Assembly (NCBI GenBank): GCA_036172665.1
Contig: CM069871.1
Location: 58,216,713-58,280,712 of the forward strand
Length of the DNA stretch: 64,000 bases
From: Prosopocoilus inquinatus
Taxonomy: Eukaryota > Arthropoda > Insecta > Coleoptera > Lucanidae
Direction: 5' to 3'
This document shows, piece after piece, positions 15,392-55,700 of this stretch. The notes below the pieces were generated by a model, which was given only the letters and a program-made list of their open reading frames with translations, had not been told where the DNA came from and ran no database searches. The position numbers and the translations under genes are program-made. How positions within the stretch are numbered: the stretch's first letter is position 1; every line of letters starts with the position of its first letter.

Positions 15392-16090
15392 CTACTTCCC
15401 CCACAGAAGACAACCTTCGATAGTTAATTCTGATCTTCTTCTATGAAACGGTCTCATGGCTATATCCTGTAGTTCTTCTGTCCAACCAGTACTCGTAAAC
15501 AGGTAGGCCTTGGAAAGTATAGGATCCTGTCTTATAAATCGAGCGATATCGGCGGCAGTACAGGGCAGATCTCGTATGTCTGATTTAAACAAGAACGATA
15601 CGTCATCTTCTTCCACGGATTCAGGATCTGCTTTCTCATTTGGTAATCGAGAAAGGAAATCAGTAACTTCATTTTCTTTTGATTTAACGTATTTAACTTC
15701 AAAGTCATAGGCAGATAACAGCAAAGCCCAACGTTGCATTCTAGCTGCGGCTGTACTTGGTAAACAATTTTTAGAGCCGAAAATCGACAGTAGTGGCTTA
15801 TGATCTGACCATAAAACGAATTTCTTTCCATGAAGGTATTGATGGAAGCGTTGAACTCCAAATATTATACTCAAAGCTTCTTTGTCAATTTGAGAATAAC
15901 CTAACTGCTTTATTCAAACTTTTGGATGCATATGCAACTGGCATCAGCAATCCCTTTTGATTTCGTTGAAAAATTGTAGCACCAAGACCGCACGACGAAG
16001 CATCACGTATTAATTCTGCAGTTCGATTTGGGTTCGAAGTGTGCTAGTATTGGAACTTCATTAAGTTTCTTTTTGATTCCGTTGAATGCA
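15392..16090 (-). pseudogene. Gypsy RNase H domain (broken)
   Basis: Open frame from 15874 downwards with FGVQRFHQYLHGKKF, WSDHKPLLSIFG (the SDHKPL signature) and MQRWALLLSAYDFEVKYVKS, followed by the DFLSRLP end block. The role in the family is degrading the RNA strand during reverse transcription. The first RNase H strand, which should carry the first catalytic Asp, lies in the stop-riddled 15875-16090 stretch. The frame then enters the linker before integrase and ends at about 15392. Confidence 0.85.
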
Positions 16091-16093
16091 TTT

Positions 16094-16952
16094 TCACAAT
16101 CTCGGCTCCATTTTGCATTTCGTATTTTTCTGCAGCAATTGATATAAGGGATGTAACATTGTAGATAGGTGTGGAGTAAACTTGGCGTAGAAGTTTACAA
16201 GCCCGATGAATGAACGCAACTGGTGAATGTCTGTAGGAGCAGGTGCATCGGAAATAGCTTTTAGTTTGTCTTCAGTTGGTTGTTGACCATGTCTTGAAAC
16301 GCAGTAACCCAAATAAGTTACAGAATTCAGTTTCAAGAGCCGAAAGAACTTTCTTAAGGTTTGTTAAATGCTCTGACGTTGTCTCTCCGGTGATGATAAT
16401 ATCATCCTGAAACACTCCAACTCTTGGAAAATTCCCAAACATCATATCGAGTCTCTTCTGAAAAATCTCAGGCGCTGATGCAATTCCAAATGGTAATCGT
16501 AAAACCTTGAAAATCCCCTTGTGCGTATTTATAGCACAAATATCTTGCGATTGAGAATCAAGGGGTAGATGAACGAAAGCACAGCGTATATCAAGGATGC
16601 TGAATTGTTGACCGCCGGTCAACTTAGCAACAATTTCTTCTGCAGTAGGTAACTTGTATTTATCAATATGAAGATGTGGATTCACTGTTACTCGGTAGTC
16701 TCCGCATAATCTCACGCTGCCATCCTTTTTCCTCACAGGAATGATTGGAGTAGCCCATTCGCAGCAGTCCGTAGGAAGTAGAATTCCCATCTCCACTAAT
16801 CTGTCAAGTTCTTCTTCAATTTTTGGACGAAGTGCAAATGGCACAGGCCTAGCCCTAAAGAATTTTGGAGCAACTCCTTCTTTAAGCCGTAAAGTAACTG
16901 GAGAGCCAATAAACCAGCCTATTCCAGGTTCGAAAGCCTTGTATTTCATCAA
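16094..16952 (-). pseudogene. Gypsy reverse transcriptase (broken)
   Basis: Fingers block ARPVPFALRPKIEEELDRL, EWATPIIPVRKKDGSVRLCG, then FSILDIRCAFVHLPLD (catalytic Asp), RLPFGIASAPEIFQKRL, and the catalytic box FQDDIIITG, where Phe-Gln replaces the usual Tyr-Leu before Asp-Asp. A frameshift at about 16300 separates this from the thumb block LGYCVSRHGQQPTEDKLKAI and RSFIGLVNFYAKFTPHLS. The sequence style is that of invertebrate Gypsy elements widely annotated as K02A2.6-like. Inactive because of the shift. Confidence 0.88.
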
Positions 16953-17320
16953 TGTTTATCTTGCTGTCATTTCTTTTTTCCATGTGAAATAATTCTTTCA
17001 TGTTGACTTTAAATTGCTTTACAAATGGTCTTCCAATCAACCAGTGGTGGTCCTCCGCTTTCAATGACTATAAATTTGTAAGCCTCACAAACGTTTCCTA
17101 CTTCAACTTCAGCATGTATAGCTCCCAAAGGATGAACCATACTGCCATCGTAGAGTTTCAAAGCAACTATTGACGGCTCAAGCAGTAAATGATCATGATT
17201 TTCGTATGTCGACTTGGAAATAACAGATACTGACAATCCCGAATCTACTTCAAATTCCATGGATTTACCATCTACTTGTATCTGTATCACAATGGGTTTG
17301 TCATGGAGCTGACTCTGCAT
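16953..17320 (-). pseudogene. Gypsy aspartic protease
   Basis: Retropepsin-like block: KPIVIQIQVDGKSMEFEVDSG with the active-site triplet Asp-Ser-Gly, then VSVISKSTYEN, and later WLIGRPFVKQF near 17030, the partner of the usual LGxDxL block, here with Arg-Pro. The residue after DSG is Leu where Ala is normal. A frameshift falls between the two halves at about 17010-17060. In active relatives this protease cuts Gag-Pol. Probably dead. Confidence 0.75.
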
Positions 17321-17399
17321 ATTTTATATGGCACGGAAATCAGTGAAATCCTCTTTTTCAGTTGAGTGACTCTGAAACATCTTGTTCGAAGCAATTCAA

Positions 17400-18264
17400 T
17401 CAATCTTCGGCCCAGGTCCCTTTTTCTTGTCACTTTTACACGTCCGTTTTAAATGATCCACTTTATTGCACTTCTCGCAGGTGTAGTTTTTAAATGGAGC
17501 ATCATTGGCAATGACAATTCATCAGCCCAGTGATCAAAATTATTGCAACGGAAACAGCATTTCTTGTTTTTAATCGCACTTCCCGATGTTGATTTGATTT
17601 CTCGTTGATTCTTTGGCTTGGAGTTTCTTGATTTTAATTGCATTTTATTCATAGGTAGTGCTGTCCTGGATTGTCTTAGTTCACAGGCATCCCTCTTAGC
17701 AGTCTCGAAACTTAGAGCGATATCAGTAGCCACATCCAATGTAAGATTGTCAATTGTGAGTAATTTATTTAAAAGTGTAGTGTCCCTTACTCCAAACACT
17801 ATTTGATCGCGCAGTGTTTCGTTTAGTTGATTTTCAAACTTGCAATTAGTGGATAATCTTCTTAAATCGGCCAAATAATCAGAGAAACTCTCATTTTCCA
17901 ATTGAACTCGTCTTGTGAATCGGTATCTTTCAGTTGTCACATTCGGTGTTGGATTAAAGTGTTTCTTAAGAGTAGCAACTAGATCATTATATGTTTTGGA
18001 CTTGGGAACTTCAGGTGTAAGCAGACTACGTAGTAAGGCATAGGTATCCTTACCTATCATTGTCAAAAGTATTGACTTTTTGTTATCATGACTTGAAATA
18101 TCATTCGCATCGAAGTAATTATCGAGCCTTTCTTCATATAGTAGCCAATTATCATTATTTGCATCAAAGGGCTCAATATTTCCCATAATATGAATTGTCG
18201 TAGCTGCAGCTTTTGACTGACCGTCATTTTGGCTGTCAGCTTGACCCGGATTAGTCCACGGCAT
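17400..18264 (-). pseudogene. Gypsy gag with two zinc knuckles
   Basis: Starts at an ATG giving MPWTNPGQ and runs for 271 codons. It contains the capsid-type block DNWLLYEERLDNYFDAN, LLRSLLTPEVPKSKTYNDL, LKKHFNPTPN and NESFSDYLADLRRL, typical of Gag in this Gypsy group. Near the end comes CFRCNNFDHW, the first half of a CCHC knuckle. A frameshift then breaks the frame, but in another frame CEKCNKVDHLKRTC (a complete CX2CX4HX4C knuckle) follows at about 17450-17490. The role is forming the particle and packaging the RNA. The N-terminal start just downstream of the primer-binding site supports this ATG. Confidence 0.85.
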
Positions 18265-18284
18265 CTTTACTTAATTCTTCCAAT

Positions 18285-23942: not shown

Positions 23943-26028
23943 ATGCCAAAAACTAAAATGCATTTAAAAATATGGGTGAAGCCGTTCGAAAACGATTTTG
24001 AAGTAGAAGACGAAAAAGTGTTTTGCCGTCTGTGTTCTAAAATTGTAAGTCACTTATTTTTAAAAATCTATTTTTTAACTATTAAACAAAAGAGTGGTTT
24101 TTATATTTTTCTCCGAGAATGTATTTTATACTTTCCTTCAAGTTATGTGGGTTCCTAAATTTTATGGTATTGTTGAATAATAGTGTTTCTAGAAAAATTT
24201 GCAATATTGAATACAAACCAAATTGCTGGTACCTAATATAAGTACATTAATTTACATTATTTATTTCTCAGATAACAGTAACTAAGAAGTTTGATGTTGA
24301 CCAACAAGTTAAAACTGCTTTACATCAGAAAAACAGATCCAAATCAGAATCATCTAGTAAACAGCAAACTATTAAGAATAGTTTTTGTAGTGAGAAGTCG
24401 AATCAAGAACGCAAGAAAGAATTTAACCGTGACCTGTACGCTGCGTTAATTGCGTCAAATATACCTTTATATAAACTTAATAATGTGAACTTAACAAACT
24501 TCTTAAAAAAAATATTGTAAGGAAGATATACCGGAAGAGTCTACTTTACGCAAAAATTATTTGAACGACGAATATAAACAAATACTTTTAAATGTACAAA
24601 ATTATAGAAAAATTTTGTGCAAATCGTTTTTGATTGCAGTGAAAACCTCGAGCAGCCTCTGGACAGCTGTTTCAGCCCTGCTTGGGGCTTCTTCAGCAGA
24701 AACGTAGCTGGACATTCCACGTTTCTGCTGAAGAAGCCCCAAGCAGGGCTGAAACAGCTGTCCAGAGGCTGCTCGAGGTTCTCACTGCAATCAAAAACGA
24801 TTTGCACAAAATTTTTCTAAAATCTTTCATTATGCTTTGACAGCAAGCATGGCCGCCTTGCATGGGGGACTCATTAGGAGCAAATCCCGCTTCAATTTGT
24901 CTATCCTACTGCAATGTTAGGTCAAAAAGAGATAGTAAGATGACGCTATTTTATATGTACAAAATTATGTAGGAGAAAATTACTTCTATATATGCTTTGA
25001 TGAAACTACCGACGTATGTGGTCGATATATTGTAAATTTATTAATTGGACCGCTAAAATCTCATACACACTCAAAGCCAGTTTTAATCGCTAGCAAGCAG
25101 CTTGAAAAAACCAATAATATTACAATTACGCAGTTTATAAATGAAAGTTTAGCTAATTTTTCCTTGCCTCAAACTATCCCTTACAAAAAACTACTTTTAA
25201 TATTAACGGATGGAGCGCCTTATATGTTAAAAGCATGTCAAAATTTAATATTTTTTAGCAATGCAATTCATTGTAAATGCTTGGCACACGGGATTAATCG
25301 CGTGGCAGAATTTATTCGTGATCAATTTGAAGATGTTAATAAATTAATTAACAACTGTAAAAAGATTTTTTTAAAGGCACCTCTGAGAGTGCAGTTGTAT
25401 CGCCAAACATTTCCAGATTTATGTTTGCCACCAGAACCTGTTATTACAAGGTGGGGAAGGAACATGGTTAGAAGCTTCATCCTTTTATGCAGAAAATTTC
25501 GAAAAAATAAGAACTATTATTGAACAGTTTGATAATTCAGCTAATAGTATAGTTACATGTAAAGATTTGCTAAAAAATAAGGAACTTCTAGCAGATTTGT
25601 GTTTTATATACAGTAATTATAAGAATATTCCCAATATACTGAAGAATTTAGAAAAAACAGATATTACTTTAGGTGACGCAGTTAAATTAGTTATGGATTT
25701 TGAAAAGGAATTAATGACTGTTAAGAATCAGCTGGGCCGTAATATTTTAGAAAAATTTAGAAATGTATTAAGCAAAAATGTAGGTTTTAAGTCACTTCAA
25801 ACTATTTCAAATTTCATAAATGCAAACTCTCATAATATCGAGGAGTGCAATATAAAATTAAGTTTAATTGAAATTTCAAATTTCAAATATGCGCCAATAG
25901 TTTCAGTTGATGTCGAAAGAAGTTTTTCTTTATTTAAAAATATCTTAAGCGATAGAAGGAGAAGTTTTGAAGTAGAAAACTTAGAAAAATATGTAATTAT
26001 TAATTATTATTACAATTATTTTAAGTAA
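23943..26028 (+). pseudogene. hAT 1 transposase with intron (broken)
   Basis: ATG at 23943 gives MPKTKMHLKIWVKPF and a BED-type zinc finger start, VFCRLCSKI. A clear intron follows (24045-24271; GTAAGT donor, TTTCTCAG acceptor) before VTKKFDVDQQVKTALHQKN, which completes the finger. Downstream come EESTLRKNY, CFDETTDVCGRYIVNLLIG (first catalytic Asp), LTDGAPYMLKACQN (second catalytic Asp), KCLAHGINRVAEFI, EPVITRWG and the dimerisation block YAPIVSVDVERSFSLFKNIL. Lesions: a frameshift in an A-run near 24515, a 349-bp insertion after VQNY, and a frameshift after RWG near 25455. In active hATs the protein cuts and joins element ends. Confidence 0.9.
24606..24954 (-). mobile_element. foldback element FB, copy 3
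   Basis: Interrupts the hAT 1 transposase between the VQNY and ENYFYICFDETTD blocks. It is flanked by a 14-bp duplication ATGTACAAAATTAT (24592-24605 and 24955-24968); removing one copy plus the insert would rejoin the transposase frame at this point. The centre is a near-perfect palindrome of about 100-bp arms around CCTCGAGCAGCC / GGCTGCTCGAGG. One end is AGAAAAATTTTGTGC, the other CGCTATTTTAT. Confidence 0.9.
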
Positions 26029-27119: not shown

Positions 27120-29226
27120 TAGAGAGCGGATTTATATGCGAGTAATTTTGATGAAATATGCGCATATATATGCACTAAAAAATGATGAAATATGCACATA
27201 TATATGCACTAAAAATGGCGAAATATGTGCAAGATAGGCCGAACACTTCAAATAATGCAATAACTGGTCTACTGTGTTTTATGGGCATTCTTATTCAAAT
27301 AAAAAACATTATATTTTATACAATTTATTTACATTTATTTGTAAACGCTTATATGAAGGAAGTATATATATTATGTATGTACATTATTAAGTAAATATTA
27401 TAACGACTAAAAAAATCTTCGATTATAATTTACAACAATGTGTTTTTCCAAGTTCTCTACCAGGAAATTTTGCCTTTTATCTGACAAAATATTTTTATAA
27501 ATTGAAAAACTCCTTTCAACATCCACGGAGGTAATTGGGGCATATTTAAAGTGACTCATAGCTGAAAATTCTACACTTAAGTCAATTTCAAAGTTTCCAT
27601 TCAAAATTTCGTAAATTTCCTCAAGGGTTTTGAAGCCGCTATTTTTATCTAAAACGGATAAACATTTTTTATTTACTGAACTGCCGATTTTACCTGGAAC
27701 TTTTGAAATATTCTCTTTAAATTCTTTAACAATTTTAACGGATTCTATTAAAGACATTTTCGGTTTTTCTAAATTGTTTATAGTTTGTATTACACAACTG
27801 TAATGCATTTTGATGAAGTTCAGTTGATTTGCCAATGAAGTTTTTGTTACAATATTTTGTGCCTTTGCAATAGCAGCACTATCTTGGGCATTAAACTCTA
27901 CAACCAATTCCTTAATTGCTACAAAATGTTCAGCATAAAACATTGCCGCTTCCAACCAAGTTCCCCACCTAGTCAACACTGGTTCGGGAGGTAAAGGTAC
28001 ATTCGGCAATTTTTCCCTGTACAACTGAACTCGTAGGGGACTTTTGACAAATATTTTTTTAATGGTACTAATTAGTAGATTTACATCAGAAAATTCACAT
28101 CTAATATGTTCAGCTACTCTGTTACATCCATGAGCTAAACAACTCACGTGAACTAAATTTTTATAAATTGTTTTAAATTGCTGCCCGGCTTTAACCATGT
28201 AAGGGGCAGCATCTGATACCATAAGTAAAATTTTTTCAGTAGGAACTACATTAGGTGAGAAAAATTTCATAAAACATTCACTAACAGATCTTAAAATACT
28301 TAAATGATTAGTTTTGTCTAACTGTGTACAGGCTATTAAATAAGATTCACTAGGTTTATCTTCCCGCAAAGACCCTATTAACAAATTTACAATGTAACGC
28401 CCACAAGAATCAGTAGTTTCATCCACAATAAAATAAATATATTGATTTTCTATGATTTTCTTGACTTCTTTTAGAGTATCGTTGTAGATGCGAGGCACGT
28501 AATTTTTTCTTAACGTACTTTCATCGGGAACATTTTTCTTGGTATATTTTTCCAAAAAACTTTTAAAAATAGAATTTTGCAGTATTTTCAAAGGTATGTT
28601 TGCACAAATCATCGCCTCGCATAAATCAGCATTAAATTCTTGTTGTTCATTAGATGAAGTCATCAACGACGGTCCACTGTCTAAGGGTAATTGAAATGTT
28701 TTCGATTCATTCATCTTCTTGCATTTTGACTTGTGTATTTTACTACAGGCTTTACAGAATACGCTCCCATTGGTGTAAGCAAGCTCGGGATAGCTTCTGA
28801 TCCAGGAATTAACCAGGCTCGAATTGTCTTTCGGCATATTGCACTTCTCACAAACAAAAATACTTTTACGGAAGAACTAAACGTTCGCAGCAATAACCGA
28901 CTAATAATCCGTGAAGAAGTGATGAAACAATATTGCAAATATGAACGCCCCACCGCATCGTTAAGAAAGTACTTGGAAATCCCTAATTCACTACTTGGAA
29001 AATTCTGCCTGCTTAAGCCCAAGAAGGGTGCAAACTAGACCCTAATTAATGCAACAACATGTTCTGACGAATTAAGAATTCAGGAAAAAATTTACTCACT
29101 TCGACACAAATTCTTTCAAATATGCATATATATGCACGTTTTTAAGAAATATGCGAAAATTGAACAAAATGCTCAAATATGCAAAATATGCATGCAATAT
29201 GCATTTAGCATAGAATCCGCTCTTTA
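27120..29226 (-). mobile_element. hAT transposon 2 (complete, 2.1 kb)
   Basis: Starts TAGAGAGCGGATTTATATGC and ends as the reverse of TAAAGAGCGGATTCTATGC, flanked by a perfect 8-bp duplication GTTATGAG (27112-27119 and 29227-29234). AAATATGC motifs cluster just inside both ends (27154, 27188, 29118, 29147, 29175, 29184). The single uninterrupted transposase frame makes this the only possibly autonomous element in the window. Confidence 0.95.
27407..28837 (-). CDS. hAT 2 transposase, 476 aa
   Basis: Uninterrupted frame starting MPKDNSSLVNSWIRSY. N-terminal BED-finger remnant VFCKACSKI has the first two Cys, but the following His pair expected in a BED finger is not visible: the text goes directly to HKSKCKKMNESK. 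Then ADLCEAMICANIPL, ESTLRKNYVPRIY, YFIVDETTDSCGRYIVN (first catalytic Asp, about residue 138), LMVSDAAPYMVKAG (second catalytic Asp), VSCLAHGCNRVAEHI, EPVLTRWGTWLEA (conserved RW), and the C-terminal dimerisation block YAPITSVDVERSFSIYKNILSD with the third catalytic acidic residue expected upstream of it or at its Glu. The role is excision and reinsertion of the element in the nucleus. It has no intron, unlike hAT 1 at the equivalent place. The damaged BED finger is the main doubt about activity. Confidence 0.92.
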   Translation of the reverse strand: MPKDNSSLVNSWIRSYPELAYTNGSVFCKACSKIHKSKCKKMNESKTFQLPLDSGPSLMTSSNEQQEFNADLCEAMICANIPLKILQNSIFKSFLEKYTKKNVPDESTLRKNYVPRIYNDTLKEVKKIIENQYIYFIVDETTDSCGRYIVNLLIGSLREDKPSESYLIACTQLDKTNHLSILRSVSECFMKFFSPNVVPTEKILLMVSDAAPYMVKAGQQFKTIYKNLVHVSCLAHGCNRVAEHIRCEFSDVNLLISTIKKIFVKSPLRVQLYREKLPNVPLPPEPVLTRWGTWLEAAMFYAEHFVAIKELVVEFNAQDSAAIAKAQNIVTKTSLANQLNFIKMHYSCVIQTINNLEKPKMSLIESVKIVKEFKENISKVPGKIGSSVNKKCLSVLDKNSGFKTLEEIYEILNGNFEIDLSVEFSAMSHFKYAPITSVDVERSFSIYKNILSDKRQNFLVENLEKHIVVNYNRRFF

Positions 29227-47910: not shown

Positions 47911-48460
47911 ATACACAAGAATAAAACGAGCTGATTTCCTGCGTTTCTATCCATACAGAAAGTCCCAGGTTAAAAAAAAAACGAAACTTTAATAATATAA
48001 ACTCCGGGGTAATTGAAGTTGTAAATCTTTACGCTTTTAACACCTAACAACAGTAAAAACGTTTTTGTACGGCCTGGGAACGAGGCGCGTCTTAAGCTCG
48101 GGCGAAATTCTTTATCGGCTGGTCAAAAAAACAGACTCTACTCCGGTAAATATATTTACAGGGTGAATTTTAAACTGTAATACGTATCGAAAAGAAAACA
48201 ATAAGGTGTTCTGTGTCCCTAAGACAGGGGCACCCGAAAACGGGGCCCCTTCTACACAGCATCAACGTGCTCTGAAGAAGTCGCAAACGACACTTGCTTT
48301 TCAAAACTCGAACTCATATTATGAAGCCAAAATGGAAAATTATTGATGATAATGATTGGTTCAAAACCATTGCGCCTAGCAACGCACCCACTCCTACATC
48401 GCACATCACGTGACAAGTGCAAGACAGAGTACAGTGTACACTGTCGAAATTCCTTTGATT
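47911..48460. other. gene-free flank of the LTR element
   Basis: No gene recognised. Confidence 0.4.
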
Positions 48461-48544
48461 TGTAAGAATCCAGATTCGTAGGATAATTATTTTCATAATT
48501 TAGTATGCTTATTTAATTCGGATATATTATTAAGTTAGAATTCG
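48461..48544 (+). repeat. 5' LTR stub (first 84 bp)
   Basis: Begins TGTAAGAATCCAGATTCG and is identical base for base to 51696-51779. At 48545 it changes abruptly into pol-type coding sequence, marking a deletion from inside the LTR to just upstream of the protease. The base content is AT-rich. No target duplication could be matched because the right LTR end is not defined. Confidence 0.9.
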
Positions 48545-49752
48545 AATTTGAAAAAGGATGCGCTACACAAAGGAGACGTCAAGCTCCAACTAGAAGCGGA
48601 ATAGGCAAACCGCAGCAACTTACAAAATCAATACGTGATCGTGGAAGGATAGCTCCCTTAACCTTTAAAGAAGTAATCGCAGACGATGAAAATGATTGTG
48701 TTATATCGGCTCAGATAAATGGCCGAACGGCTCAGCTATTAGTGGACACAGGAGCCTCAGTTTCTATTTTGAAAGAAACGTTCGTCAAAAGAATTAGAGC
48801 AAAAATCAGTCCTAGGACTGAAACTACTCTACGAGGAATTTCAGGTCAGGAATTACCTTGTCTCGGGGAAGTCTTAGTAAAGCTCCGAATATGCAAGCGA
48901 CAAATTTTTGTTCCATTCATGGTGTGCCCTGACTCAGTCAGCATTACTAGTGATGGACTAGTAGGACGAGATTTCTTTCATAAAAATGATGTAAAGATTA
49001 CATTTCAAGGAGGAAATGTCAAAATCAATTTAGGTGCTAATCAATTATGCACGCTTCATCAATTAAGGGAGCCTAAAGAAGAAAACTTTGATGACAAACC
49101 AAAAAGCTTCAAAGAAACTTCGAAAATACGGAGAAACACAAGAAGTTTCGAGAAGTATAAAAAAGATACAATTAACTCAAAATCGGGCCTAAGAAATAAA
49201 AAGGCAAATATAAGAGAAAGTTTCGAAATTAAACAAGTGGTTGGAGATGTATTTGATGCTCCAACAGATTATTGCTTGGCACACTGTGTTGCTGAAGATT
49301 TTAAAATGGAACGCGGTTTAGCGGTACAATTTAAAAGACGTTATAACAATGTTGAGAAACTGAAAAAACAACGAATCAGGACAGGTGGTATTGGTATATT
49401 GTCGGAAGCCGAAGATGGTAGAAGATTTATTTACTATCTAGTTACCAAGGAAAAAAGTTATCAAAAACCCACCTTAGATTCACTGAAGCAAGCGCTGGAG
49501 AAGCTGAAAACCCACTGTCTAAGCAACAAGGTTACAAAACTTGCAATGCCAAAATTAGGGTGTGGAGTCGATCGACTTAGGTGGGCCAAAGTGAAAAAAA
49601 TTATGGAAGAAGTATTTAACGAAACAGAAATTGAAATTTTAGTTTGTGTTCTGGACAAGACAAAGTACAAAGGTCCTCAAGAACAAAAGGTTAACATGGA
49701 GCCAATGAAACGACGAATAAGAAAGATGAACTCTAAAACAAGGAAATTGTAA
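48517..49752 (+). CDS. retroelement protease-macrodomain fusion (partial pol)
   Basis: One 411-codon open frame with no natural start: it opens at the stop inside the LTR stub and has no early ATG, as expected for an internal piece of Gag-Pol. Protease: VISAQINGRTAQ, LLVDTGASVSIL (active-site DTGA, codons at 48739-48753) and DGLVGRDFF, the block that pairs with the active site. After a basic linker comes the macrodomain at about 49225-49660: VVGDVFDAP, CLAHCVAEDFKMERGLAVQF, IYYLVTKEKSYQKPT, and KLAMPKLGCGVDRLRW. It resembles TARG1/OARD1, which removes ADP-ribose from Glu/Asp side chains and from DNA ends. The catalytic Lys (codon 49447) and Asp (codon 49570) are both present, 41 residues apart as in human TARG1. 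What it does for the element is unknown; reversing host ADP-ribosylation is an inference. Confidence 0.93.
   Translation, partial: FGYIIKLEFEFEKGCATQRRRQAPTRSGIGKPQQLTKSIRDRGRIAPLTFKEVIADDENDCVISAQINGRTAQLLVDTGASVSILKETFVKRIRAKISPRTETTLRGISGQELPCLGEVLVKLRICKRQIFVPFMVCPDSVSITSDGLVGRDFFHKNDVKITFQGGNVKINLGANQLCTLHQLREPKEENFDDKPKSFKETSKIRRNTRSFEKYKKDTINSKSGLRNKKANIRESFEIKQVVGDVFDAPTDYCLAHCVAEDFKMERGLAVQFKRRYNNVEKLKKQRIRTGGIGILSEAEDGRRFIYYLVTKEKSYQKPTLDSLKQALEKLKTHCLSNKVTKLAMPKLGCGVDRLRWAKVKKIMEEVFNETEIEILVCVLDKTKYKGPQEQKVNMEPMKRRIRKMNSKTRKL
49225..49660 (+). other. TARG1/OARD1-like macrodomain
   Basis: About 145 codons, close to the full size of stand-alone TARG1 (152 residues). Conserved landmarks are the GDVF loop binding adenosine, LAHCVAED near the substrate, the KEKS/QKPT segment, SLKQALEKLKTHC helix, and the phosphate-binding GCGVDRL loop. 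It is intronless and in frame with the protease. The segment shows no stop or frameshift even though neighbouring pol domains are deleted. Confidence 0.92.
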
Positions 49753-50135
49753 AAGAAGAGAAAACTAAGAGTAATAAGAAGAATGTGTGGGAACGAAAAG
49801 AAGATACGAAATTAAGGAAGGCGACCTCGGAGAAAGAACCAAAGTTACATTCGTCACTGCCAATGACGGAGGGTAACGCGAAGAATGTAGTTGCTAGCTA
49901 CCCAATTCGCATTAAGGAGACCGTAGATATTCCTCCGAAATGTCAATACGTATGTATAGTTAAACAGGGTCTGATCAACCCTGAGAAAATAATTTTGATG
50001 GAACCGACAGAAATGTTAATTCATGGAATAGCAATAGCGAGATCAATATCCAAGGCTAAACGGAAAATTCCAGTATGCATACTCAATGTTTCTAGAGAAA
50101 CAATTCGGTTGTCAAAGAATCAAGTTGTAGCCTAA
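49737..50135 (+). pseudogene. protease-RT linker region of pol
   Basis: The frame is offset by -1 from the protease-macro frame and open from 49737, overlapping its end by 16 bases. It contains VASYPIRIKETVDIPPKCQY, GLINPEKIILMEPTEML, GIAIARSI and VCILNVSRETIRLSKNQVVA. This is the segment that lies between protease and RT in many Gypsy elements (a 'rich in ILN, then vVA' block). It ends at a stop at 50133, where RT should begin. The offset may be programmed or a mutation; I cannot tell. No enzymatic role is known for this segment. Confidence 0.8.
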
Positions 50136-50138
50136 GGA

Positions 50139-50951
50139 AAAATAAGGATTCATGTAAATAAGCTGAAGCGTTATTACGAAGGCGTACCTGCTCAGAACAG
50201 GCGTTACAATGGAAGCTTCAAGCGAAGTGGAATTCCAGATCCTGTCGAAAAATCATCACTATCGGAAACAGATGATGATGATGAAACTGAAGAACAGTGG
50301 ATGGGTCCACGTAGTTTTCTTCACCAACAAGAAAACGAAGAGCCTGAACAGGAGGCACGGGAAGATGACAGACGTACCCGTGAACCATCCGAAACAGAAC
50401 AGGAGGAAGAGGTACAAGATGAAGAAAATCGTCTAGATCGGGATATCAGTAATGAAGAGATTGAAGAAAGAAACATAGGTCCATCAGCACTAAGTTCAGA
50501 GGAACAGGATATCAGTGAAAACTCTAATCATTCAGAAGAGAACACTCCTGTCAGTCAACCTCAACCCCAACCCAGTACATCTAGTGAGTGGAGGCGACAA
50601 ATTAGTGCTGATCTTTCGGTAGATGACAATGACAGTAACCATAACCAATCACAAGAGTTCCTAGATACTACCGAAGACTAGGAAACAGCTATTAGTGAAA
50701 TTGGCGATGATTCAACTTATGATCCCGAAGAAAGAAAATTAGAGCAAGAATCCGTTGAGGACCTAAGCGATTGCCTATCGGATTTATCCATTGATGAACC
50801 TGCAAGGAGAAGTAGAAGGGAGACCCTAGTTCCGGAAGAAGTCCAAAGACCCCAAACCAGGAGTGCAGGTCCAGTCGAGGAATACCCATGGGTGATGCAG
50901 AGACGCTTAGCCAGATTCGGTCGAGGTTCAAGTTCAGAAGAAACCGAATAA
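50139..50951 (+). pseudogene. integrase C-terminal tail with long acidic extension
   Basis: Begins in the middle of an integrase: IRIHVNKLKRYYEGVPAQN is the last block of the Gypsy integrase C-terminal domain (the LKxYY motif). It is followed by about 165 codons rich in Glu, Asp and Ser (SETDDDDETEEQW; EQEEEVQDEENRLDRDISNE). One in-frame TAG at about 50679 interrupts it; the same frame then continues, with RPQTRSAGPVEEYPWVMQRR, to a stop at 50949. The function of the acidic extension is unknown. The upstream catalytic core is deleted at the junction near 50135-50140. Confidence 0.8.
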
Positions 50952-51045
50952 ACCTTTTTCCATTCCCATAATCTCCTATGGAACACAATCCATAAACAAT
51001 TCAAATGATCAAATATCATCGATCAATATTCTGAACAATATTCTG

Positions 51046-51408
51046 TAAATCCCTCCATTTGTTAACAAAGCATATACAATAATCTTACTTCTTCCCTTAT
51101 TCTCATTTTTGGTGGCCGTATTCCTGTCCACCATGATGTTAAATATTGCCCTTCACGTATCAAACCCAAAACCGAAGTACACTGCAACAAGTCTAAGGAG
51201 ATACCGAATTTATGAATTTTTGGGAGTCTCTAATGGAACCAGATATTGGAATGGATCCAACTCAACCGAAGTCCCATCCGATCAAAAGGGTAGACAAATT
51301 GAGATAACTTCAACATCACTACTTCCGTTGCCATGGCCATTACCAAAGTTCCAGACCCAAAAGACAACAGTTTCTGATCACCACTCACCGAGCTTGGCGA
51401 TCGTTTAA
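51046..51408 (+). pseudogene. membrane-protein-like ORF remnant, possibly env-like
   Basis: Open frame after a stop at about 51045 with a hydrophobic stretch of about 20 residues (TIILLLPLFSFLVAVFLST) near its start, then a hydrophilic stretch with N-glycosylation sequons (NGT, NGS). It lies between integrase and the polypurine tract, where errantivirus-like elements keep an envelope gene. No fusion peptide or C-terminal anchor is visible and the frame ends early. An envelope origin is therefore only inferred from position and leader; it could be chance. Confidence 0.35.
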
Positions 51409-51678
51409 CAACGCCAGTGTTGGAGACTGATTGTGCAAAATCAGAGGGTGCGCCGCGTACTCTGATCCGACTTGTGCGAAGTGAAAAGGACAATTTTCCG
51501 AAAGGTAATTTTGTAAAAGTTCGTATTATATTTAATAGTTTAGGTATATGGTTAGAATTTAAGAAAAAAAAAAGGATGTTTGGTAATTTTTCTTTAATTT
51601 GTAACTAAGACATCAAATGTATATATGTTTTTTCTTATATTACTTTAAGGAAAAGAGTTGCTTGTAACAACTCTTTTA

Positions 51679-51695
51679 AAGTAAGGGGGAAGGGA
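51679..51695 (+). promoter_or_regulatory. polypurine tract
   Basis: AAGTAAGGGGGAAGGGA ends exactly where the LTR repeat TGTAAG begins. This is the expected primer site for plus-strand DNA synthesis in LTR elements and fixes the LTR start. Confidence 0.85.
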
Positions 51696-51779
51696 TGTAA
51701 GAATCCAGATTCGTAGGATAATTATTTTCATAATTTAGTATGCTTATTTAATTCGGATATATTATTAAGTTAGAATTCG
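51696..51779 (+). repeat. 3' LTR, proven first 84 bp
   Basis: Identical to 48461-48544 and preceded by the polypurine tract. The LTR continues beyond 51779 into sequence for which no partner exists. Confidence 0.9.
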
Positions 51780-52419
51780 TATTATGACTCATGAAGAATA
51801 CAAAACACGTGCAGCGTTATGCAACGAAAGCATTCGTCAAGCTTGTGATGTATGTACCGAGAAATTAGATCAAGGGCATTCATATCGCTGGAACATCGGC
51901 GATAAAAGAAATAATTATGTAAGGAGGATGAATCATGCAGAAGAACCTTGATCGAATCTCGATGCTAGAAAAATTAGAATTAGCCATCAAGGTTTATCTC
52001 ATTACCAAAGCTGACGTAGACCAAAAGGAGGTCATCTGATCCCAATAAATAGGTAGCTTTTCAGACACAAGGGGAGTTCGACAAGACAGTTGCCCGAGAG
52101 GGTTTGTCACGACAGTTGGCACGAACTCCTGTCATCTAGAAAAGTGCTTCTTCGATTCCGAATGTAATTTAGTTTGTGCGTCACGAGTCATAAAGTTTTA
52201 AATTCTTTTTTTTAATCAGTCAACTTTCTAAATTTATTTTAATTTAAAAGTGTACCTAAGAAGCATCAACGATCGGCGAGGGTGAGTTTAAATAACAAAG
52301 ATCTAACAAATGTTCTTAGATATAAACTGATTTTTGTTAATCTTTCCTTCTCTCTTTCATACTGTAGCTTTAATTTTATGTTAATTGTCAAATTTTACTT
52401 ATTAATTTAATTCACATAT
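51780..52419. other. probable remainder of the 3' LTR and flank
   Basis: No coding sequence recognised. It includes a GC-richer block (52060-52140) with inverted GGAGTTCG / CGAACTCC. The right LTR border cannot be set without another copy. Confidence 0.4.
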
Positions 52420-52715
52420 TATTTCGTTTGTAATTACTTTTTTGTTCGAATATACTTTGTAATGTAAAGTTGTATTTTTTATTTAAACGATAATAAGAAA
52501 TGACTTTTAAGAAAACATAAAAGAGATAAGGAGTGAACAGTTTTCGACAATTCCAAAAACAAATATTAGTAAACACTATTCGAGCTATTTGGGGAAAACA
52601 ATTTGGAAATCGATTTCTGGCTTTCCATGCTAAAACCAGAGCGCTACTAACAAAGAAATCGAAATTCAATATTGTACGGATTGCTAAAAGAATTGGGGAC
52701 AAAAGAGGATGAAAA
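52420..52715 (+). repeat. repeat C, copy 3
   Basis: The longest copy of the family also seen at 21035 and 22800, ending TTGCTAAAAGAATTGGGGAC...GATGAAAAG. It could lie inside the 3' LTR or just beyond it. Confidence 0.6.
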
Positions 52716-55700
52716 GCCAGTTTCCAACCTCCGTCCGACGTGCGCGTTTCTACAGATTTTTTCCGCTAAGAAAATCGATCCCTAGGTGTTCGCTTTAAAC
52801 GGAAGTAAATAAATCAATAAAACTCGAAAATAAACTTTCTGATATTCCCATACGGCGGCGGCGGGCGGTTTCTTTTTATTGCAGGTGTTATCCTAGATTG
52901 CATCATACCGGTGCAATATCTTTCGATATTAATAGTCTGCCGCAACAGAAATACATTAAAGCACGTTCTTTGATTTTCAGCCGCCTTTGTGCAGCTGTAC
53001 AAACATTGGAGATAATTGCATAGCAAGAGAAATGCGACGTAAACTCGAATTTCAAGCCATAGGTTGTTTGAAGAACTCCTTAAAGAAGCGCACGATAAGT
53101 AGTTTGTATTAAATAAATTAGTTTTTCTACAAAGTCCGAGATGTAATGAACGAAAGTTGGCACCGTAACAAGCGCCTATCCATAGCCACTCGCAAGTAAA
53201 TGCAACTGCGTTTTATTTATTCACTAAGTTTGTTACGGGCAAAACGGGGTAGTTTGTAATTTCGCGCACGTTAACAAAAAAAATTTTATAGTGTTGTTGT
53301 TGTAGCTGAAATAACAACAACACTGCTCCGGTAGTCGAGTCGAGAAGGGGTGAGTATGTTTTTTTTCTTTTCTCTCCTATTTTATTTCGCATACCATGAA
53401 AACACATCGGATCATTGCACATAAATTTTAATTAGCCCAAAAAACATGGAAATCATTACAACAAACTCCAGTGTTCAACATTTAGCGCTATGTGACTTTG
53501 ATTAGTGATTAAAATGTCGCAATTACCGCTCAGATCTGATTGGTTCACAAATTTTGCCGGTAAAATTAAGAAAGTCAAAAAAAGTTAATTACCAAAATAT
53601 TAATAAAAAAAAGATTAAATTAATGTAAAAAAAAGGAATGATTGAATTAAATTGAATTAAGTTAAACAATTATAAATTTCAGAAATAAATGCAATAAAAA
53701 AACAGGAATAACGGAAAATCTTATCTGGTGGATCGACGATCCGGGATGGGTCCAAGAAGAGTCCTTTTGATTCCTTAACGGGATCGAATGGGAGCGGCAA
53801 TAATTGGGCAAGCTCCGTGGCCCCGTAGGCAGAGTTCATCAAATTTTCGTGCCACTAACCTTGCCAGAAGTAGCCCAAAAAATATTGGAGAAAGTTTTCA
53901 ACAAACTTATAGAATTTCTTTTCCCAGACACAAAAAAAAAGAACCTGAAGTAAACGAAAACAGAATATAAGACCAAATGTACAAAGAAAAATAAAATAAA
54001 TTTAGATACCTGATGTAACGTTCTCTTCGCGTGAGACGAGTGAAAAACTTCTGAAACCTTCCGTAGAAGACGCACCAGCCCACTCAAAATGCAGAAGGTG
54101 CTGAAGAATTTTCTTTATTCAAAAACCAAAATAAAATTGTGGCGGTAAGACGGTAGCCTAAATTCCTCGGAATAGTTCAAAACTTCGGTAATTTCACCAA
54201 AAATACCGTCAGACCAGCTTGCAGAATAAAGTAAAATTTTACGAAGAAAACACCTCATTCTCAGGCGGAAACTTAGTGAATAATGAATTATTATTTTCAC
54301 CTGAACGAAAATTCGCGAAGCAGGGATAAGGATAGTTTCTCGTTACCAGCGAGAGTGCGAAGAGGATGGACGCCCTGATAAGAGAACCTGCACGACCACA
54401 ACAAAAAGAAGTTTGACGAAGAATACAGATAACAACGTTTCAACAGCCAACCGAAATTAATTTTGAAACCTTAAATGAGATTTTATTATGTACAGAAATT
54501 AATGTTAATATTTAATTGTAATAAGTTATCGACGGTCACCATGGTGATGTGGTTCCAACATTTTTTGCCATTGGACGTTGGTTCATTAGTTGATAAGTGA
54601 CATCCGAGACTTTACACATATATTTTGGATTCTTGTACAAAAGTTAATTTTGTAATGGTTTCTTTTAATAATAATTATATTAATTAAACACATTTTATTT
54701 TATACATTTACGAAAACGCTAAAGGGGGTAGGAATTCTCGAGTTGTCATCCCGTACAAAAGGGAAATGAAAAATGGATTACATTACATTAATGTTATATT
54801 CTTTTTGCTTTAGTTCACAATAATATTATGTTAAAAAATTCTTCCCCTATCAAGCTATAATGGAATGACTGGAAATACATGTTAATATAATTAAACGAAA
54901 GAAAAGTATCTATTTTGACGCTAGTGTAAATGAAATGCGAAAGAAAGTATTTTTAAGATCTAAATAAATCACTGCGACAGCGGCGTAATTCGCATTCAGA
55001 GTTTTTAATCAATCAAAGCGCCGTTAACCATTTCAATTCATTGAAAACATTCATCACACTCAGAATCATAATCCGGGCTCGTTTTTTTTCCTTCTCTCTT
55101 CCTTTTCTCGCGCGCCGCCTTTTCGAGTTAATTAAACTTTTTAAGTCACACGCAAATTGAATAATTGAATTCATAATTCACTCTAAAAATTTAATACTCA
55201 ATAAAGGACGCTCGCGCTTTGCTTTTCTCGTTCTTACAGTTGAAGTGAGATTTGAGAAAGCTACTTTAACGGAAATTATTGTTTTCGTCCAGCGAAGCAG
55301 AGGGTGCAGTCATGCATTCTTGCGTGTAGGGGCGAGACGGCCCCTTACCCTCGGGGCGATATTTCTCTAAAGCCAACGAGAGTTCTCAGGAAATACTAGT
55401 CATCTGCGTTAAAAAAGACTGAGTCGTAAAATAAAAATCACCAATAAAAAAAACTCCAAAACAGCAATCTATGACTTCATATTACACGTTTCCTTTTTTA
55501 CTTCCATGCATGAAGTAGTACGTATTAATTTGAGGTAGTGATTGACTTTAGGCAACCGTCCCTTTGGATTGAACTTCAAACACACGGTACCTATCAATCG
55601 AGACGCAAATAATTTATTTATATGTATATTCATAAAAAGCAGAGCAAATAAAAAAAGGGAAAATCACCCACACTTGTGGAGCGCTGAATGAACATTAAAT

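Follow-up and report, generated by a model that had tools for sequence, protein, structure and literature searches.

TARG1-type macrodomains at several pol positions in Ty3/Gypsy retroelements of the beetle Prosopocoilus inquinatus and in public polyproteins, with a deubiquitinase-type domain in one branch

Introduction

Can an ADP-ribose hydrolase be a regular part of a retroelement polyprotein, or is its fusion to a protease the accident of a single locus? The question is raised by a 64,000-nt stretch of the Prosopocoilus inquinatus genome (assembly GCA_036172665.1, contig CM069871.1), hereafter the window, in whose numbering positions are given. In one open frame of the window, a retropepsin is followed by a TARG1-type macrodomain within a Ty3/Gypsy element flanked by long terminal repeats (LTRs). 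A sequence-only reading had proposed that a Gypsy-like lineage captured a host TARG1 gene and placed it between protease (PR) and reverse transcriptase (RT). A search of the whole assembly (649.6 Mb, 173 contigs) reveals RT-bearing relatives that share this layout, which bears the proposal out; the PR-RT position, present in these relatives, is just one of several slots in which the domain occurs.

Results

Full-length relatives of the window element

The window DNA gives 16 matches in the assembly, the PR-macrodomain protein at least 130 (the best 111 of 1570 candidates scored) and the macrodomain alone at least 150 (the best 150 of 1313 candidates scored), these counts being lower bounds because only part of the candidates was scored. 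Many of the macrodomain matches lie in open frames of 1430-2016 codons, and many others in shorter, broken frames. RT is found downstream on the same strand, within scanned flanks of 1.5 kb, at 27 of the 30 best-scoring macrodomain places; the three RT-less places are the window copy and its near copies on contigs C6 and C8 (C1-C8 denote contigs, L-numbers genomic loci and P-numbers database proteins, and the families F1-F13 were set in this analysis by frame length and identity). The nearest RT-bearing relative lies on C7 (macrodomain 78%; RT 82% to F2).

Pfam scans in pieces reveal the order gag, PR, macrodomain, RT, RNase H and integrase in L069 and L071, the arrangement for which the sequence-only reading had suggested searching; L070 has the same order from PR to integrase, and its gag frame shows a zinc knuckle only. 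The CCHC zinc knuckle is present in L069, L070 and L072 and is weak in L071 (E 0.0099). Gag and pol lie in frames offset by -1 that share 34-121 nt, and all four overlaps examined contain a correctly phased slippery heptamer (TTTAAAC, TTTAAAC, TTTAAAT and GGGAAAC), a tally made without a shuffled control. The divergence of pol between F2 and F3 is mosaic and lowest in RT, with no sign of a recent macrodomain swap. The elements share with Ty3/Gypsy (Metaviridae) the LTRs, a primer-binding-like site (in the C6 copy), the polypurine tract, a 4-bp target duplication, gag, -1 frameshifting and the order PR, RT, RNase H, integrase; they differ from ordinary members in that a macrodomain is added at one of several slots, joined in F4 by a USP domain and in the F11 lineage by a CCCH finger.

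The window copy as a deleted derivative

The window element (48461-52754) has TG...CA LTRs and a GATT target duplication at both ends (Table 1). The Pfam scan of this copy detects no RT, RNase H or integrase core. Alignment to the C6 copy reveals that the rest of the 5' LTR, the leader and the start of gag have been deleted, which explains why the 411-codon frame begins inside the LTR remnant. In this frame, Pfam places the gag-asp_proteas domain PF13975 at residues 63-155 (4e-10) and Macro PF01661 at residues 261-363 (1.6e-6). The motifs quoted in the sequence-only reading (DGLVGRDFF, VVGDVFDAP and CLAHCVAED) all lie in this frame, and the Gypsy pol linker, polypurine tract and LTR that it had described are found, the linker in a frame other than that of PR and macrodomain. 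Its integrase tail fares less well. Part of the C-terminal pol segment (50136-50681) is 100% identical to the C6 copy and partly common to the C1 copy, but it has no BLAST match to the F2 or F3 pol pieces, so that the label rests on position and on the motif HVNKLKRYYEG, which we take to be typical of integrase tails.

The window copy is 97.7% identical to the C6 copy over 3226 columns and 97.3% to the C8 copy over 2716 columns, and the alignment shows that all three have lost RT, RNase H and most of integrase; they therefore form a small non-autonomous subfamily. The C6 copy retains a piece of gag, an open frame of 680 codons that holds zinc knuckles, protease and macrodomain, and a primer-binding-like TGGTGGCAGCGGTGGGATT located 3' of its 5' LTR. 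Over 359 columns, the LTR portions of this copy share 96.9% identity. The window copy is thus a deleted, non-autonomous derivative of a macrodomain-bearing Ty3/Gypsy group.

Table 1. Features of the window element and the USP-type domain of family F4.
Feature	Position	Strand	Evidence or remark
Left target site duplication, GATT	48457..48460	.	Direct reading; same as 52755-52758
5' LTR, initial 88 nt only	48461..48548	+	99% repeat of 51696-51783; alignment to C6 copy
411-codon open frame: gag remnant, retropepsin, spacer, TARG1-type macrodomain	48517..49752	+	Pfam; PDB search
Retropepsin domain	48703..48981	+	Pfam PF13975/PF13650; active-site Asp codon 48745
TARG1-type macrodomain	49216..49671	+	Lys84-equivalent codon 49447; Asp125-equivalent codon 49570
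Pol linker, upstream of RT in full-length relatives	49737..50132	+	46-48% to F2/F3 linker; 68% to C7 copy
C-terminal pol segment behind the RT-integrase deletion, two frames	50136..50951	+	100% and 91% to C6 copy
Polypurine tract	51683..51695	+	AAGGGGGAAGGGA immediately 5' of 3' LTR
3' LTR, 1059 nt, TGTAAG...CTACA	51696..52754	+	Alignment to C6 LTR portions
Right target site duplication, GATT	52755..52758	.	Direct reading
USP-type deubiquitinase of F4	L071:6637-7500 = C3:56947636-56948499		Behind integrase

Elsewhere in the window, another Gypsy element in which no macrodomain is seen occupies 15392-18270 (-), and two related frames at 24939-26028 (+) and 27407-28876 (-) look transposase-derived by eye.

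Fold, active site and selection of the macrodomain

In a search of PDB sequences, the window macrodomain matches human C6orf130/TARG1 over its whole length (residues 234-378, 1e-38). The best PDB match of its AlphaFold model (predicted local distance difference test score, pLDDT, 92.5) is human TARG1 with ADP-ribose (4j5s; template modelling (TM) scores 0.90/0.98, 0.9 Å). The domain therefore has the TARG1 fold, and TARG1 is its best match among macrodomains by both sequence and model. The catalytic pair of TARG1 is Lys84 and Asp125 (PMC9411070), and both equivalents are kept in the window domain and in 46 of 47 distinct element macrodomains, some of which are near copies. Only P0020, whose two macrodomains stand in tandem, departs from this, in its degenerate second domain; P0017 likewise has two tandem macrodomains. 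Beetle host genes also carry a second domain; of three such domains aligned, two no longer have the catalytic pair.

Relative to human TARG1/OARD1/C6orf130 and the TARG1-like host genes of insects, the element domains have approximately 45% identity, the same fold and the same catalytic residues, but they are fused inside a retroelement polyprotein, are intronless where read, often have MS[KR]GIA in place of the loop MGAGIA, and lie outside the beetle host clade.

Across six between-family comparisons, the ratio of nonsynonymous to synonymous substitution (dN/dS) in the macrodomain falls in the range 0.14-0.28; in the F2-F3 pair, RT and integrase give 0.03 and the spacer adjoining the macrodomain gives 0.38, all figures being rough because some dS values are large. 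The sequence and active site of the macrodomain are maintained by selection.

Placement of the domain and macrodomain-free relatives

In this genome, the macrodomain lies behind integrase in F7 (L074) and F11 (L073), and in F11 it is followed by the CCCH finger. Within this integrase-macrodomain lineage, CCCH-type zinc finger matches directly behind the macrodomain are seen at L073:2218-2790, L067:1-1044, P0014 and the proteins of Molorchus. Protein database searches with X-padded queries returned 7 and then 59 proteins, and a profile scan identifies 19 public polyproteins with both RT and macrodomain. The domain follows integrase in ten of these and lies between RNase H and integrase in five; in two it follows RNase H with no integrase found behind, in one it is between PR and RT (P0058) and in one it precedes PR (P0061). 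Named sources of the RT-bearing proteins are Leptinotarsa decemlineata, whose protein is a tropomodulin gene model fused with an element, the sawfly Athalia rosae and the snail Nucella lapillus. Additionally, 21 further proteins combine PR with a macrodomain but lack RT; gene models from the longhorn beetle Molorchus minor account for 19. These 21 may represent another deleted but macrodomain-keeping group, or gene prediction may have skipped RT. One integrase-macrodomain protein comes from a record of the plant-parasitic fungus Erysiphe pulchra (P0055); since it groups with P0062 inside the integrase-macrodomain lineage, contamination or transfer is indicated.

Two relatives, each a single copy of which the PR-RT stretch alone was read, lack the domain. 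In L078 (RT 66% to F2; grouped with F1-F3 at 93/88), PR, linker and RT follow in succession, and in L079 (C4:19002000-19004699; RT 63% to F2) a long charged insert or spacer occupies the PR-RT slot.

Origins of the domain

A pol tree of 30 rows places the PR-RT arrangement in two separate supported parts. In a pol tree of 29 rows, from which the macrodomain-free Gypsy at 15 kb of the window was left out and in which the partial macrodomain-free L078 row was kept, a single clade is rejected by the approximately unbiased test for the PR-RT class (p-AU 9e-73), the after-integrase class (p-AU 1.6e-138) and the after-RNase-H class (p-AU 1.2e-49), and therefore the domain was placed or relocated on several occasions. 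The macrodomain trees are less decisive than the pol trees. They allow a single clade of element macrodomains with 24 of 36 rows (p-AU 0.073) and with 33 of 62 rows (p-AU 0.286; without the three long-branch rows P0069, P0074 and the second domain of P0020), as well as a single clade of the nine PR-RT-slot macrodomains (p-AU 0.459), so that one or several host captures would both fit.

The nine beetle host TARG1 genes, including that of this genome, form a supported clade (96/93, the bootstrap being not fully settled) with no element sequence inside. The beetle's own gene groups with leaf-beetle and other beetle genes, differs in sequence from the element domain and has a GT-AG intron within the macrodomain. 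The captured domain is of TARG1 type, as had been proposed, but because the beetle host clade excludes the element sequences, the donor was probably not the present TARG1 gene of this beetle, and a recent capture from that gene is judged unlikely.

A deubiquitinase domain in family F4

In F4 (L071), the same frame runs on behind integrase into a USP domain (PF00443, 7e-50) that matches USP2 (2e-38) with both the Cys and His boxes seen in the alignment. The domain is present at all 17 places with open 1764-codon frames, and its 98-100% identity among them suggests recent activity. Three F4 copies at C5:47386741, 47398223 and 47409705 are spaced by exactly 11482 bases, forming a tandem array. 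At four further places (C2:39.59, C4:35.94, C5:52.24 and C1:33.32 Mb), the match positions place a diverged USP match (34-51%) approximately 3.3-3.5 kb from a macrodomain, on one strand and in the same order. Other USP places (e.g. C2:50325289, C3:47274285 and C8:29338261) have no adjoining macrodomain among the matches listed. From these sequences we infer that the F4 branch became a two-eraser element through the added USP deubiquitinase.

Macrodomains in viruses and other proteins

The nearest named viral folds in BFVD are VP8 of Kadipiro virus, a CRESS-virus protein and the proteins of thrips-associated flavi- and virga-like viruses. The closest viral folds are TARG1-like domains of insect viruses, with Kadipiro virus VP8 at 44% identity and TMq 0.93 to the element domain; the Kadipiro and thrips-associated viruses are RNA viruses without reverse transcription, unlike the elements. 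The macrodomains of coronavirus nsp3, alphaviruses and rubella virus likewise provide an ADP-ribose fold in a polyprotein with a protease, but they are distant matches only (TMq 0.69-0.75, 13-17% identity), and the element domain does not belong to the coronavirus or alphavirus type, human TARG1 and Kadipiro VP8 being far closer. In coronaviruses, a deubiquitinating protease lies close to the macrodomain, which may be compared with the USP domain of F4.

A search of IMG/VR viral contigs with the window protein confirmed none; with alignment A1 as query, it gave one 78.8-kb contig, L077, that carries a TARG1-like macrodomain. TARG1-like or TARG1-type macrodomains are also present in P0074, together with a viral methyltransferase domain, and, behind a weak endonuclease/exonuclease/phosphatase match (3e-5), in P0072, perhaps a non-LTR retrotransposon. 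Fusion of a TARG1-type macrodomain to a protein of DNA ligase III type is seen in P0059 (from the copepod Tigriopus californicus), in P0031 and in P0027, where the macrodomain lies between the ligase C-terminal domain and a BRCT domain.

Discussion

The reading preferred here, to which a probability of roughly 0.6 is given, is that captured TARG1 domains strip ADP-ribose, and in one branch a captured USP strips ubiquitin, from components of the element or the host. The macrodomain would be made together with pol through -1 frameshifting and would act inside particles or once freed by the protease. Its substrate would be ADP-ribose on Glu/Asp or nucleic acid, on element components or host factors, where it would have been added by cellular ADP-ribosyltransferases, and its removal would keep replication or integration unblocked; one branch would have gained the USP deubiquitinase in addition. 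TARG1-type domains are also carried by insect RNA viruses, which make no DNA, and the simplest reading is therefore that elements and viruses share a target within host ADP-ribosylation. Such a target is consistent with the PARP catalytic matches seen at four places of this genome, one of them with internal stops and one weak. A precedent for the action of the PARP family on retroelements is the restriction of LINE-1 by mammalian ZAP, a PARP-family protein whose own PARP-like domain is described as defective (PMC4441479).

Several observations weigh against this reading. The within-family dN/dS of the macrodomain is 0.79 (window-C6) and 0.69 (F11-L067), values based on few changes. The C1 copy (L005), one of three weaker places without RT in their flanks (the others being L007 and L008), has an integrase fragment only. 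L078 and L079 indicate that the macrodomain is not essential for Gypsy replication; since one has no macrodomain and the other has a spacer in its place, the PR-RT slot tolerates inserts and the domain is accessory.

An activity on nucleic acid is the alternative that deserves most attention, although it is considered unlikely: like TARG1 or DarG, the domain would clear cDNA ends or integration gaps of ADP-ribose so that integration and repair can finish. TARG1 takes ADP-ribose off DNA (PMC9411070), the macrodomain is located in pol next to RT and integrase, and the DNA ligase III fusions would suit such a role, but the TARG1-like domains of insect RNA viruses need a target other than cDNA. 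Some macrodomains bind ADP-ribose only, and the element domain could in principle be a binder of ADP-ribose, RNA or PAR (poly-ADP-ribose)-marked chromatin that guides particles or integration without being an eraser. Targeting would suit the C-terminal slot by integrase with the CCCH zinc finger (F11 and P0014); however, a pure reader would not need the catalytic Lys/Asp pair that is so widely kept, and the wide variation in placement also argues against this role, which is thought improbable.

It is very improbable that the domain is a functionless passenger or that a deletion accidentally joined a host TARG1 gene to a protease fragment. The window copy is indeed deleted and lacks RT, and the high within-family dN/dS would fit a passenger, but multi-copy full-length elements in several families and species carry the domain under purifying selection between families, and the host gene has an intron inside its macrodomain and a different sequence. 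Chimerism is rejected because other copies carry the macrodomain, nearly all of the best places with RT downstream. The RT-bearing relatives carry it in the same place, and the doubt that the sequence-only reading had attached to its own proposal, a lack of such copies, is removed.

Beyond the erasure of ADP-ribose, it is conceivable, at somewhat less than even odds, that Ty3/Gypsy elements repeatedly took up the TARG1 eraser, and one branch USP as well, as a counter-defence kit of two erasers that broadly resembles the macrodomain and deubiquitinase of coronaviruses. The different pol slots suggest a strong recurrent benefit. Capture of host genes by LTR elements is already known, as in crocodilian endogenous retroviruses (ERVs) with a captured KIT-ligand or nectin3 (PMC4299795); these captured other genes, and no word beginning with "macro" occurs in that text. 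The fused proteins have already been deposited in public databases, where some are annotated with precomputed Macro and RT domains; in a literature search mostly at the level of titles and abstracts, no description was found of an ADP-ribose hydrolase or deubiquitinase captured by Gypsy or other LTR elements.

ADP-ribosylation is an antiviral mark in vertebrates and is opposed by viral macrodomains. If the elements do carry such a counter-defence kit, ADP-ribosylation, and ubiquitin with it, would restrict retrotransposition in insects and other invertebrates in a way not recognised so far. The added deubiquitinase points to a second host mark. Retrotransposons can carry enzymes that are usually discussed for RNA viruses, and the abundant, selected TARG1 domains of these mobile elements indicate which substrates to seek and would offer a natural handle on ADP-ribosylation as a restriction of retroelements and as an insect defence.
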